NCBI GenBank assembly: GCA_903920315.1
Contig: CAIXLU010000176.1
Coordinates: 1 to 44,527 of the forward strand
Length of the DNA: 44,527 nt
DNA from: an uncultured Oscillochloris sp.
GTDB lineage: Bacteria > Chloroflexota > Chloroflexia > Chloroflexales > Chloroflexaceae
Reading direction: 5' to 3'
The notes under the pieces were generated by a model that saw only the letters and a list, made by a program, of their open reading frames with translations, was not told the DNA's origin and did no database searches. A program made the position numbers and the translations under genes. Position 1 is the first letter of the stretch, and the number at the start of each line of letters is the position of its first letter. Shown here piece by piece: positions 1 to 44,521 of this stretch.

Positions 1-168
1 AGGGATGAGGGATGAGGGATGAGGGATGAGGGATGAGGGATGAGGGATGAGGGATGAGGGATGAGGGATGAGGGATGAGGGATGAGGGATGAAGGATGAG
101 GGATGAGGGATGAGGGATGAGGCCGGGGTTCTTTCCTCCCTCATCCCTCATCCTTCATCCTTCATCCC
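1..168. repeat. Heptamer array with inverted heptamers (hairpin-forming)
   Basis: Seventeen in-phase copies of agggatg fill positions 1-119, with one variant (aaggatg at 92-98). The window edge cuts the array, so its true length is unknown. After a 21-bp unique stretch, four reverse-complement heptamers follow at 141-168 (tcatccc or tcatcct). The transcript or single strand could fold into a long hairpin. The array ends 2 bp from the stop codon of the repressor gene. The same design with other unit sequences recurs at 12728, 15038 and 29892. Confidence 0.95.
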
Positions 169-170
169 TC

Positions 171-15025: not shown

Positions 15026-15037
15026 GGGAAACTCCTT

Positions 15038-15143
15038 GATTTTAGATTTTAGATTTTAGATTTTAGGTTTTGGGTTTTGGGTTTTGGGTTTTTGATTGCG
15101 GCCAATCTGCAATCCAAAATCCAAAATCCAAAATCTAAAATCC
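15038..15143. repeat. Heptamer hairpin array (gatttta / ggttttg type)
   Basis: Four gatttta units (15038-15065) are followed by three ggttttg units (15066-15086). After about 24 bp of other sequence come four to five reverse-complement-type units (aatccaa x3, aatctaa, aatcc) at 15111-15143. It lies just upstream of thrS and 5 bp from the stop of the next gene. The arms can pair over about 30 bp. Confidence 0.93.
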
Positions 15144-41306: not shown

Positions 41307-42833
41307 ATGACCAACTCCCGTCCGCCGCGTGCCGGGCTCCGCCTCGACCACCTCTGGGCCATTTTTGCGCTAAGCGTGATTGGCGGATTCATCAGCTTGG
41401 CACCCACTGCGCCAAACGATTTCTGGTGGCACCTGAAGGCTGGTGAGATCGTCGCCAGCAGCGGAATTCCTACCACAAACCTCTTCGCGTGGACGCTCCC
41501 CGCCAATCACCCGTACACCTACCAGAGCTGGCTAGGCGAGTGGCTCTTCTACTCCCTCTTCCGTATCGGTGGACTGCCGATGACGATCTTCGCCCGCAAC
41601 ATGCTCGGCGCGGCGGCCTTTGCGCTGGTCGCCTGGGAGTCCCGTCTGCGCAGCGACTCGTGGCGACTGGGCGCACTGGCAGCCATGCTCGCCGCCGCGA
41701 TGACGATCAACAATCTGAACGCCCGCACCCAGAACTGGTCGTGGCTGCCCTTTATGGCTACGCTGATGATCCTGAGCGGCTACGCGGCAGGTCGTGTCCG
41801 TCCGCGCTGGCTGATAGCCCTGCCGTTGCTCATGGTATTCTGGGTCAATGCCCACGGTGCCTTTGTGCTGGGGTTGCTGGTTGCGGGAGCTTATGTGGTT
41901 GGTGAAACACTACGGCGTCTGTTGCACCAACCACGTGCCCTGGGCTGGGCGCAGTTACGTTGGCTCTATGTGGCTGTCGCGGGCATGGTTGTGGCGACAC
42001 TGGTGAACCCGCTCGGTGTCGGCGTCTTTGGCTATGTGGGCAATCTCTTGGGTGATCAAGCCATCCAGGGTCTGATCAACGAATGGCAGCCACCCGACCC
42101 GAGTACGCTGGCCGGGGGCATGTTCTTCATCGGCGTGTTGGTTCTGCTGGCATCCTTCGCCCTAGCCCGTCGCCGCCCGACGATCACCGATGTGCTTCTC
42201 GCCTGCGGCCTTGCCTGGCAAGCGTTCACCGGCGCACGTTCGGTGGTCTGGTTTGGCTTGGCGGCCATGCCGCTGGTGGCTCAGTCCCTTGCCTTGCCGA
42301 GGATTGTCTTCAGCACTGCTGGCCCGCTGTCGCCGCGCAAAGGTGGCGGCAGCACGGCGAACCTGTTACCGGCACTGCTGTTGATCGCTGTTGTTGTTGT
42401 CCTCCAACCCTGGCTGAAGCCGTTGCTGCCCTTGCCCGCACCCTACCAGGCAATCTTCACTGATCTGCCAGGAGCGCCACAGCTCTTCAGCGCCGACACT
42501 CCCGTGGCCGCCGTGGACGAACTGCGAGCCAATCCATGCCCAGGGCCGATCTTTAATGAGATGGGCTACGGTTCATACATGGCCTGGGCGCTTTACCCAG
42601 CGGCGCAGAGTTTTATTGACCCGCGAGTGGAGATGTATCCGTTACAGCTCTGGCACGATTACGCGGCGATCAGTCGGGGGCAGGATGCACTGCCGTATCT
42701 TGATCGCTACGAGGTAGCCTGCGTACTGCTGGATCGAGGACTTCAGAGTGGGTTGGCTGTCACTCTGGACGACTCGGCCCTTTGGGTGCGCAGCTTCCGC
42801 GCCGGGACAAGCGAGATTTGGCGGAGACGGTAG
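41307..42833 (+). CDS. GT-C-like polytopic membrane protein, copy 1
   Basis: This 508-residue protein has about ten transmembrane helices and the GT-C glycosyltransferase layout. After helix 1 the motif TAPNDFWWHLKAGE supplies the acidic residue expected in the first outer loop, followed by YTYQSWLGEWLFY. A soluble C-terminal part contains FNEMGYGSYMAWAL and SFIDPRVEMYPLQLW. No characterised enzyme matches clearly, so sugar transfer from polyprenyl phosphate is inferred. The ATG at 41307 has a GGGAG site close upstream. A paralogue follows directly, and the polyprenol-phosphate sugar synthase is divergent at 145 bp. A GC palindrome pair follows the stop codon. Confidence 0.8.
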   Translation: MTNSRPPRAGLRLDHLWAIFALSVIGGFISLAPTAPNDFWWHLKAGEIVASSGIPTTNLFAWTLPANHPYTYQSWLGEWLFYSLFRIGGLPMTIFARNMLGAAAFALVAWESRLRSDSWRLGALAAMLAAAMTINNLNARTQNWSWLPFMATLMILSGYAAGRVRPRWLIALPLLMVFWVNAHGAFVLGLLVAGAYVVGETLRRLLHQPRALGWAQLRWLYVAVAGMVVATLVNPLGVGVFGYVGNLLGDQAIQGLINEWQPPDPSTLAGGMFFIGVLVLLASFALARRRPTITDVLLACGLAWQAFTGARSVVWFGLAAMPLVAQSLALPRIVFSTAGPLSPRKGGGSTANLLPALLLIAVVVVLQPWLKPLLPLPAPYQAIFTDLPGAPQLFSADTPVAAVDELRANPCPGPIFNEMGYGSYMAWALYPAAQSFIDPRVEMYPLQLWHDYAAISRGQDALPYLDRYEVACVLLDRGLQSGLAVTLDDSALWVRSFRAGTSEIWRRR

Positions 42834-42873
42834 AGACGCCCCGCTGGGGCGTCTGACGCCCCGCCGGGGCGTC
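42834..42873. repeat. Two tandem agacgcccc hairpins
   Basis: agacgcccc-gct-ggggcgtct (42834-42854) and gacgcccc-gcc-ggggcgtc (42855-42873) lie end to end right after the stop codon of GT-C copy 1. A third copy follows the stop of copy 2 at 44501-44521. They may act as terminators or be duplicated with the genes. Confidence 0.92.
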
Positions 42874-42888
42874 TGTTCGGAGCAATCA

Positions 42889-44496
42889 GTGAACTTCCCA
42901 GCAAAACGCAGCGCGGGCATGACCCTCGACCACGTCTGGATCTTCGCGGCGCTGGCCTTCATCGCCCTACGCTCCCTGCTGACACCGATTCCGCCAAACG
43001 ATTTCTGGTGGCATATGGCCACGGGTCGGCTGATTGTGGCGAGCGGGCAGATCCCGACGGTGGACAGTTTTTCGTACACGCGGGCGGGCGAGCCATTCTA
43101 CAACCAGAGCTGGTTAGGTCAACTGCTGATGTACGAACTCTACCAATTCGGCGGCGTGGCCCTGGTGATCGTGGCCCAGGCCGTGTTGCTGGCAGGCACC
43201 TACGGCCTGCTGCTGCGGCTCTGCCTGCGCCGCACGGATCGGCTACGCCTAAGCGTGGCCTTCCTGCTGATGGCGACAATGCCGGCCTCGTTCGATAACT
43301 GGATCGTGCGCCCACAGACCTACGCGCTGCCGCTGTTTGTGGCCTACCTGTATGTGCTGGATGGGTGGGCAGGAGGCAGGAGGCAGGAGGCAGGAGGAGG
43401 GGGGCAGGGGGCAGGGGGCGGGGGGCAGGGGGCAGGGGGCGGGGGGCAGGAGGCAGGAGGCAGGAGGACGGGGAAAAGTGTATCGGCACTATTGCCATAT
43501 CAACTATGGATTCTGCCAGCGCTGGGCGTGATCTGGGTGAACCTGCACGGATCGTTTGTGCTGGGTGGGGCGCTGATTGGGCTGACGTTTGTGGGCGAGG
43601 GGCTGCGCCGCTTTGTAGCCGACCGACACACGCCGCCGCCGCCGGATCGCCCGCCGCTGCGCCAGCTTTTCCTGGCTGGGGCACTCACTGGCGTGGCATG
43701 GCTGATCAATCCTGGCGGATTCCAGGTACTCGGCTATGTGCGCAATCTGCTGGGCAGTTCGGCAGTAACCCAACTGGTGACGGAATGGGCGCCGCAGACG
43801 GTGCGCGGGGTGGGTGGGGCGATCTTCTTCAGCTTTGTGATTATTGGGGTGGTGCTGCTATCCTACGCGCCGCGTCGGCCCGACCCGGTGGGGATGCTGG
43901 TGGCTGGAGCCTTCTTCTGGCTGGCGCTGGGGGCGGTGCGCAATAATATCTGGTTTATCGCCGTGGCCACGCCGCTGCTGGTAGATCAACTCACAAGCTG
44001 GTTCCCGCGTGGCAAGGGGCCGTCCTTCCAGGGTGCGATGCCGATCAATGCGGCCTTGGCAGGAGTGATTGGCCTGCTGCTACTGCTGGCCCTGCCCTGG
44101 GTCAAGCCGACCCTCGGGCTGCCGCCCGAGGTAGGCAGCATCTTTTCGCCCGATACGCCTATCGCCGCCGTGGATTTTTTGAAGGCAGAATCGCAGCGGC
44201 CAGCGCGGCTCTTCCACGAAATGGGCTACGGCAGTTACCTGATCTGGGCCGATCCGCGCCAAAAGGTCTGGGCCGATCCACGGATCGAGCTCTACCCGCT
44301 GGAGCAGTGGCTAGATTACCAGCGACTCTCGGGCGGCATACGGGCAGATGAGTTGCTGGTGAAGTACGATATTGATGGATTGCTGTTGAGCAACAAGAAC
44401 CAGGAGTCGCTGGTAGAGTACGCGCAGGCGCGTCCGCAGGTGTGGGAGCAGCGCTACGCGGACGAGGGGATGACCTATTTTGTGCATACGCGGTAG
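42889..44496 (+). CDS. GT-C-like polytopic membrane protein, copy 2, with heptamer-encoded insert
   Basis: This 535-residue paralogue of the preceding gene shares PPNDFWWHMATGRLIVASG, YNQSWLGQLLMYEL and the C-terminal EMGYGSYLIW and DPRIELYPLEQW. Start: a GTG at 42889 has GGAG 6 nt upstream. It gives an N-terminus of exactly the same length as copy 1 before LDHVW, whereas the ATG at 42919 would remove ten residues. Between two helices, about residues 160-195, a Gly/Gln/Arg-rich stretch (AGGRRQEAGGGGQGAGGGG and on) is encoded by 14 heptamer repeats. Copy 1 has only a short loop (GRVRPR) there. The frame stays open, so the insert is tolerated or the gene is recently changed. Function is as inferred for copy 1. 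Confidence 0.82.
   Translation: MNFPAKRSAGMTLDHVWIFAALAFIALRSLLTPIPPNDFWWHMATGRLIVASGQIPTVDSFSYTRAGEPFYNQSWLGQLLMYELYQFGGVALVIVAQAVLLAGTYGLLLRLCLRRTDRLRLSVAFLLMATMPASFDNWIVRPQTYALPLFVAYLYVLDGWAGGRRQEAGGGGQGAGGGGQGAGGGGQEAGGRRTGKSVSALLPYQLWILPALGVIWVNLHGSFVLGGALIGLTFVGEGLRRFVADRHTPPPPDRPPLRQLFLAGALTGVAWLINPGGFQVLGYVRNLLGSSAVTQLVTEWAPQTVRGVGGAIFFSFVIIGVVLLSYAPRRPDPVGMLVAGAFFWLALGAVRNNIWFIAVATPLLVDQLTSWFPRGKGPSFQGAMPINAALAGVIGLLLLLALPWVKPTLGLPPEVGSIFSPDTPIAAVDFLKAESQRPARLFHEMGYGSYLIWADPRQKVWADPRIELYPLEQWLDYQRLSGGIRADELLVKYDIDGLLLSNKNQESLVEYAQARPQVWEQRYADEGMTYFVHTR
43371..43468. repeat. In-frame heptamer array of 14 units inside a coding sequence
   Basis: Fourteen contiguous units of consensus (a/g)gg(a/g)ggc run from 43371 to 43468: aggaggc x3, aggagga, ggggggc, agggggc x2, ggggggc, agggggc x2, ggggggc, aggaggc x2, aggagga. 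They encode the Gly/Gln/Arg-rich insert. The coding strand has many G5-G6 runs and could form G-quadruplexes. Unlike the intergenic arrays, no inverted half is present. Confidence 0.95.
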
Positions 44497-44500
44497 AGAC

Positions 44501-44521
44501 AGACGCCCCACCGGGGCGTCT
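44501..44521. repeat. agacgcccc hairpin after GT-C copy 2
   Basis: agacgcccc-acc-ggggcgtct, 5 bp after the stop codon, repeats the motif found after GT-C copy 1. Outer bases gtaga and tctac extend the symmetry. The window ends 6 bp later. Confidence 0.9.

Follow-up and report, generated by a model that had tools for sequence, protein, structure and literature searches.

An in-frame copy of a species-specific G-rich heptamer repeat in a GT-C-like membrane protein gene of Oscillochloris

A contig of 44,527 nucleotides from an uncultured Oscillochloris species (CAIXLU010000176.1, assembly GCA_903920315.1; the whole stretch is called the window) carries a G-rich heptamer array inside a gene for a membrane protein of predicted GT-C fold. 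The array, at 43368-43467 on the forward strand, is one in-frame copy of a species-specific repeat family found at dozens of places and in many genes, a point that goes beyond an earlier sequence-only reading of the window. We consider it probable that the array is an in-frame genic copy of the species' own dispersed heptamer family, lodged in a permissive disordered loop, and that the same loop has been refilled in sister species by the repeat common in each genome.

RESULTS

The array consists of 14 units of the family GGCAGGR plus 2 nucleotides (nt), and the coding strand is the G-rich one. The units run as four GGCAGGA, GGAGGGG, two GGCAGGG, GGCGGGG, two GGCAGGG, GGCGGGG, three GGCAGGA, and a final GG. 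Tandem Repeats Finder (TRF) reported period 7, 14.3 copies, and 89% matches at 43368-43467. Order-2 Markov simulations of 60 whole windows produced no period-7 run at the reporting threshold, and chance origin of the array is therefore excluded. The sequence-only reading had placed 14 perfect-phase heptamers at 43371-43468. The array is real and free of insertions and deletions, but by TRF those ends were misplaced, by 3 nt on the left and 1 nt on the right, and the units differ among themselves. The array lies in frame within one open reading frame (ORF) and adds about 33 Gly, Gln, Arg, Ala, and Glu residues, as had been read from the letters for a Gly/Gln/Arg-rich loop with its frame preserved. 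Quadruplex potential, also proposed then, is present as a property of the sequence only (G4Hunter mean, 1.99; one G3+N1-7 motif, 43399-43425). The array has no inverted partner arm, and a BLAST comparison with plasmids found no match for it. TRF favored period 21 over period 7 at this locus (score, 139 versus 123). A signature of frame-preserving expansion by three units (21 nt) was considered and dropped, as lags 21 and 42 were only slightly above lags 28 and 35 across genic arrays.

The repeat in the loop is the repeat of the genome. Three tandem GGCAGGR units were matched 172 times in the source genome (96 forward, 76 reverse) versus 0 to 25 times in 14 relatives. The loop of the relative ZM16-3 is (GGGAGTC)7, and three tandem GGGAGTC units were matched 268 times in ZM16-3 and never in 14 other genomes. 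The palindrome CCCTCACCCCNNNCCCCTCTCC, also present in the loop of bin-0978, had 492 matches in bin-0978 versus 2 to 57 in seven others. Thus, in three species the loop holds a repeat that is common in its own genome and rare or absent in its sisters. Three tandem GGGGGTT units were found 137 times in ZM16-3, 45 times in ZM17-4, and at most 5 times elsewhere.

The loop has been filled differently between the same anchors. The distance from RPQ[TS]Y to W[VI]N.HGS was read wherever the gene was available among 61 genomes of the order and 80 named loci. The anchors (RPQTY and WVNLHGS) are 82 residues apart in the array gene versus 46 in the tandem paralogue at 41307-42833 (forward strand), and the paralogue distance was 46 in all relatives in which that gene was read. 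The sequence-only reading had used the short loop of the paralogue as an internal control, and that control is valid. In the array gene, the distance was 65 residues in Oscillochloris bin-0978, 57 in ZM16-3, 70 in ZM17-4, 203 in LJ_bin-2023, and 47 in "Ca. O. fontis" Chuk17; outside these it was 68 in OHK40, 96 in Prado088, 78 in SM1_1_0, and 44 to 63 in the remaining relatives. Orthologous loops therefore span 44 to 203 residues, all in frame. Against the constant 46 residues of the paralogue, this range supports the earlier proposal of an insertion or expansion; a uniform loop length, which would have pointed to a conserved protein loop instead, was not seen.

The inserts also differ in kind. 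The loop of bin-0978 carries the palindrome CCCTCACCCC, and that of ZM17-4 combines GGGGGTT and GGGGGCA units with a palindrome different from that of bin-0978. The LJ_bin-2023 loop contains a minisatellite of about 400 nt and a palindrome, and the Prado088 loop has 24-nt units plus heptamers. We note that in LJ_bin-2023 (L072:2222-2830, counted on the minus strand) the loop has grown by a minisatellite of the HDTAAAGG type, followed by a palindrome, GGGCGAAGCATTCGCC..GGCGAATGCTTCGCCC, which resembles that of ZM17-4. The inserts of the genus begin within about 12 nt of each other, and the ancestral flank is GG-rich (TGG CGR TCT GGR). An IQ-TREE phylogeny of the genus placed the source genome beside bin-0978 and ZM16-3 with ZM17-4, with LJ_bin-2023 between them (support, 74 to 98). 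Inserts thus differ between sister species. In Chuk17 and all sampled Roseiflexus-like relatives, the loop has no insert.

Heptamer arrays that lie in genes keep the frame. For every element with a stop-free unit in sampled contigs of the source genome, only the flanking sequence was used to assign the coding frame. When both flanks were coding on the same strand (n = 30), 24 elements joined flanks in the same open frame, 5 joined different frames, and 1 contained a stop. On inspection, all six elements that did not share an open frame lay between distinct genes, and no genic array was frameshifted. At least 24 of 29 in frame has a P value of 6e-8 if frames are random. Unit-to-unit identity at lag 7 in arrays of the GGCAGGR family was 0.81 for genic and 0.96 for intergenic copies, and genic arrays are therefore poor contingency loci.

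Period 7 dominates the genome. An unbiased 0.40 Mb of the source genome contained 52 period-7 arrays of at least 24 nt, and eight other periods (within 4 to 13) gave 0 to 3 each. Density in sampled DNA was 125 heptamer arrays per Mb in ZM16-3 and 140 per Mb in ZM17-4, and Chuk17, which has an empty loop, had none in 72 kb sampled. Genes with arrays in the source genome include mnmA, ksgA, bchZ, ftsK, dnaG, and those for a CCA-adding-type enzyme, an ABC protein, and a U32 peptidase; in mnmA and ksgA, a single NCBIfam model spans the insert. The mnmA site between ATGHYA and KDQSY holds (GGGGGAT)n..(ATCCCCC)n in the source genome, (GGGAGTC)n..(GACTCCC)n in ZM16-3, and (GGCAGGA)n..(CCTGCCT)n in ZM17-4, and it is empty in bin-0978 and LJ_bin-2023. 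The dnaG linker carries heptamer arrays with differing units in four species.

Arrays often occur as inverted pairs, and the pairs are polar. Read 5' to 3', the G-rich arm came first in 36 pairs and the C-rich arm in 1, with 1 tie (two-sided P value of about 6e-10), and the rule holds whichever strand is read. The window itself has two such pairs. At the contig end, a G-rich (AGGGATG)n array at 1-122 is followed by its C-rich partner, (TCATCCC)n, at 134-167. The other pair is intergenic, with a G-skewed (TTTTAGA)n arm at 15033-15092 and its partner, (AAATCCA)n, at 15103-15142. Contigs of the source genome often end in heptamer arrays (window 1-170, L085:1-157, L112:3016-3058, and L131:16-95). 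The arrays thus interrupt short-read assembly, and they are probably more numerous and longer than the assembly shows. Two further loci were conspicuous. In ZM16-3 (L301:14003-15047), in-frame arrays of the CTGACTC type recur about every 330 nt of a coding stretch, as would follow from joint duplication of array and protein repeat. At L088:101-4297, a gene for a PglX-like DNA methyltransferase of the bacteriophage exclusion (BREX) type contains an in-frame heptamer hairpin of about 210 nt at residues 441 to 512.

The carrier gene, at 42889-44496 on the forward strand, encodes 535 amino acids. Its start is probably the GTG at 42889, since relatives read Leu at the position of the ATG at 42919. 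Pfam and NCBIfam profiles gave no significant family match for the protein, and fold comparison was therefore needed. An AlphaFold2 model built from 29 family sequences had a mean predicted local distance difference test (pLDDT) score of 88.6, with residues 171 to 196 below 50. Foldseek gave E values down to 2.5e-8, the best for the C-mannosyltransferase CeDPY19, and also matched the oligosaccharyltransferase (OST) subunit STT3, AglB, PglB, and ArnT. VIA-align Z scores were 13 to 19 over 400 to 440 residues at about 4.5 to 6 Å, with 19 for human OST-A and 13 for ArnT. On the strength of the model, the protein is assigned the GT-C fold and may be called glycosyltransferase-like. The GT-C glycosyltransferases STT3, PglB, AglB, and ArnT share the fold over the whole carrier chain, but identity to them is only about 8 to 16% and, as above, no profile matched significantly. 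Asp38 of an NDFWWH motif is invariant in 29 of 29 sequences and follows the first helix in the model, where it would supply the acidic residue expected in the first extracytoplasmic loop of GT-C proteins. The catalytic Asp of GT-C enzymes follows the first helix.

The array falls between two predicted transmembrane helices, residues 142 to 162 and 203 to 219, and the inserted disordered loop, delimited by model and alignment, comprises residues 163 to 197 (43375-43479, forward strand). In relatives, the short loops at this position are Arg-rich (for example, EYRLGMARRLW). By the positive-inside rule, this suggests that the loop lies on the cytoplasmic face, away from the active site. We also note palindromic units, GACGCCCCGCYGGGGCGTCT, that resemble repetitive extragenic palindromes (REP), two in tandem between the paralogues at 42835-42875 and a similar one past the second gene at 44500-44521.

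DISCUSSION

We favor a sequence in which heptamer repeats arise or land at many sites in Oscillochloris, with later expansion and turnover. A copy in a loop or linker would survive provided that the insert as a whole has a length divisible by three and contains no stop, and it may persist near neutrality under purifying selection on the frame. The least certain step is how arrays are made and spread. Here we lean to errors of replication or repair where DNA ends in a G-rich 3' terminus, either by slippage or by fold-back self-priming that would leave G-first hairpins, with copying between sites alongside them. Several observations weigh against this account. GGGGGTT is common to ZM17-4 and ZM16-3, and units are thus not strictly private; likewise, the GGGGGTT and GGGGGCA units in the ZM17-4 loop are not a private repeat of that genome. 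The loops of some relatives hold minisatellites of 9 to 30 nt instead of heptamers, and the species identity of the unit could reflect a mutational bias peculiar to each species instead of copying. Moreover, the source assembly is fragmented into 716 contigs, so that copy numbers may be off, and with one genome per species, current mobility or copy change is not visible.

Other explanations were weighed against the same data. Slippage at this site alone might have produced the array, with a GG-rich seed as its start and a tolerant loop as its setting, independently of arrays elsewhere. The GG-rich ancestral flank would provide such a seed, and unrelated short tandem repeats of 9 to 24 nt do occur in the same loop of other relatives, but local slippage does not anticipate that in each of three species the loop unit belongs to a family common there and rare or absent elsewhere, and we regard it as unlikely. 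Nor does the disordered segment seem to have been selected, for example for binding or localization. The loop is long and hydrophilic in several relatives, and by eye, genes encode peptides of the G-rich strand (QEAGGRR) more often than peptides of the C-rich strand (PPASCLL). No sequence is shared between the loops of different species, however, and Chuk17 and the sampled Roseiflexus-like relatives do without the insert, which leaves a functional Gly/Gln/Arg-rich segment very unlikely. The sequence-only reading had suggested a phase-variable switch, in which slippage of a 7-nt unit toggles the gene by frameshift. Seven is not divisible by three, and gain or loss of a single unit would shift the frame, and G-rich repeats are generally prone to slip. 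Off-frame states were nonetheless absent both from the orthologues read, whose inserts vary in length and type, and from the genic arrays of the sampled source contigs, where 24 of 30 flank-tested elements keep the frame and the other 6 are intergenic. Moreover, genic arrays are degenerate, variant units interrupt this one, and it sits in midgene, as do like arrays in mnmA, dnaG, ksgA, and bchZ, where switching makes little sense. The switch thus lacks support, and we hold it to be hardly probable.

The remaining alternatives concern the origin of the repeat. G-first polarity fits synthesis at a G-rich 3' end, whether a nascent strand folds back and primes itself or both ends of a break are extended by repeats, and a mobile hairpin whose polarity is fixed would account for it as well. 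Such a hairpin, similar to a miniature inverted-repeat transposable element or a REP, would have heptamer arrays as arms and be moved by a transposase. The shared polarity of the inverted pairs, the mixture of empty and filled mnmA sites, and the palindromic element in the bin-0978 loop agree with it. We think it improbable all the same, as the array at 43368-43467 has no partner arm, neither fixed ends nor target duplication was seen, and Y1 transposases (PF01797), considered as makers of the arrays, do not track them. Alternatively, an RNA template could direct heptamer addition to 3' ends at breaks in the manner of telomerase. A period fixed at 7, G-first polarity over many unit families, and species-specific units speak for such a process, and a bacterial reverse transcriptase (RT) that adds tandem repeats is known, namely, DRT10, with 9-nt repeats (PMC12632851). 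Matches to the RT family PF00078 (RVT_1) do not track array content, however, and the many unit families in each genome would require many templates. Moreover, two RTs of the source genome (L328 and L329) adjoin formylglycine-generating-enzyme/lectin-like targets and an Avd-like small protein, and by these neighbors they are likely RTs of diversity-generating retroelements. Templated addition is thus barely credible to us. More generally, one might speculate that Oscillochloris has a specialized process for extending 3' DNA ends by G-rich 7-nt units, whether through templated or through self-primed synthesis. The same break-prone or tolerant sites, some of them within housekeeping genes, would then be filled in every species with a new unit, and G-first inverted pairs would be scars of two joined ends; we hold this to be a long shot. 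An in-frame copy of the dispersed family of the species, in a loop that tolerates it, remains the reading that we prefer.

Comparison of these sites between sister species, some filled and some empty, amounts to a natural experiment on how a repeat with a non-triplet unit comes again and again to lie in protein-coding genes without loss of the frame. The question of how bacterial heptamer arrays originate, which goes back to the cyanobacterial and Xanthomonas reports, thereby becomes directly testable. The arrays also illustrate how conserved proteins such as MnmA, DnaG, and a GT-C enzyme can gain new disordered segments. As a caution, annotated proteins of such genomes will contain odd insertions that are genuine at the DNA level.

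Dispersed G-rich heptamers are already known. Xanthomonas carries (GGGAATC)n and Nostoc (GGGGAYT)n arrays with quadruplex potential and species-bound units (Rehm et al. 2015, PMC4692102). Convergent inverted pairs of one unit numbered 70 and 75 in two xanthomonads, and the genic share of arrays was 7 to 11% in xanthomonads and higher in Nostoc, where 68% were intergenic (PMC4692102). The Oscillochloris arrays are alike in their head-to-tail G-rich 7-nt units, their dispersal on both strands, and their frequent convergent pairs. They differ in that each genome has many unit families, genic arrays keep the frame, orthologous sites in mnmA, dnaG, and the GT-C loop hold units that differ between species, and a near-universal polarity was measured across unit families. 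Chloroflexus aurantiacus, of the same order, has a species-specific heptamer-derived satellite, (GATAGRA)n, scattered through its genome, and the portion of that account available to us describes neither in-frame genic copies nor a comparison of orthologous sites (PMC6749651). Rickettsia palindromic elements are likewise dispersed repeats that lie in frame and are translated in unrelated protein genes (Ogata 2000, 2002; PMC10969869). Those elements, however, are palindromes of about 150 bp in defined families, with fixed sequence, length, and palindromic structure, whereas Oscillochloris has short tandem arrays or heptamer hairpins with a species-specific unit, and the loop array has no partner arm and varies in length. 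In Borg elements, young tandem repeats in ORFs create disordered segments, membrane proteins included (PMC9879509). Borg ORF units are divisible by three, and the 7-nt unit here preserves the frame only through the total insert. So far as the searchable literature shows, it is the serial in-frame colonization of orthologous genic sites by species-specific units that looks new.
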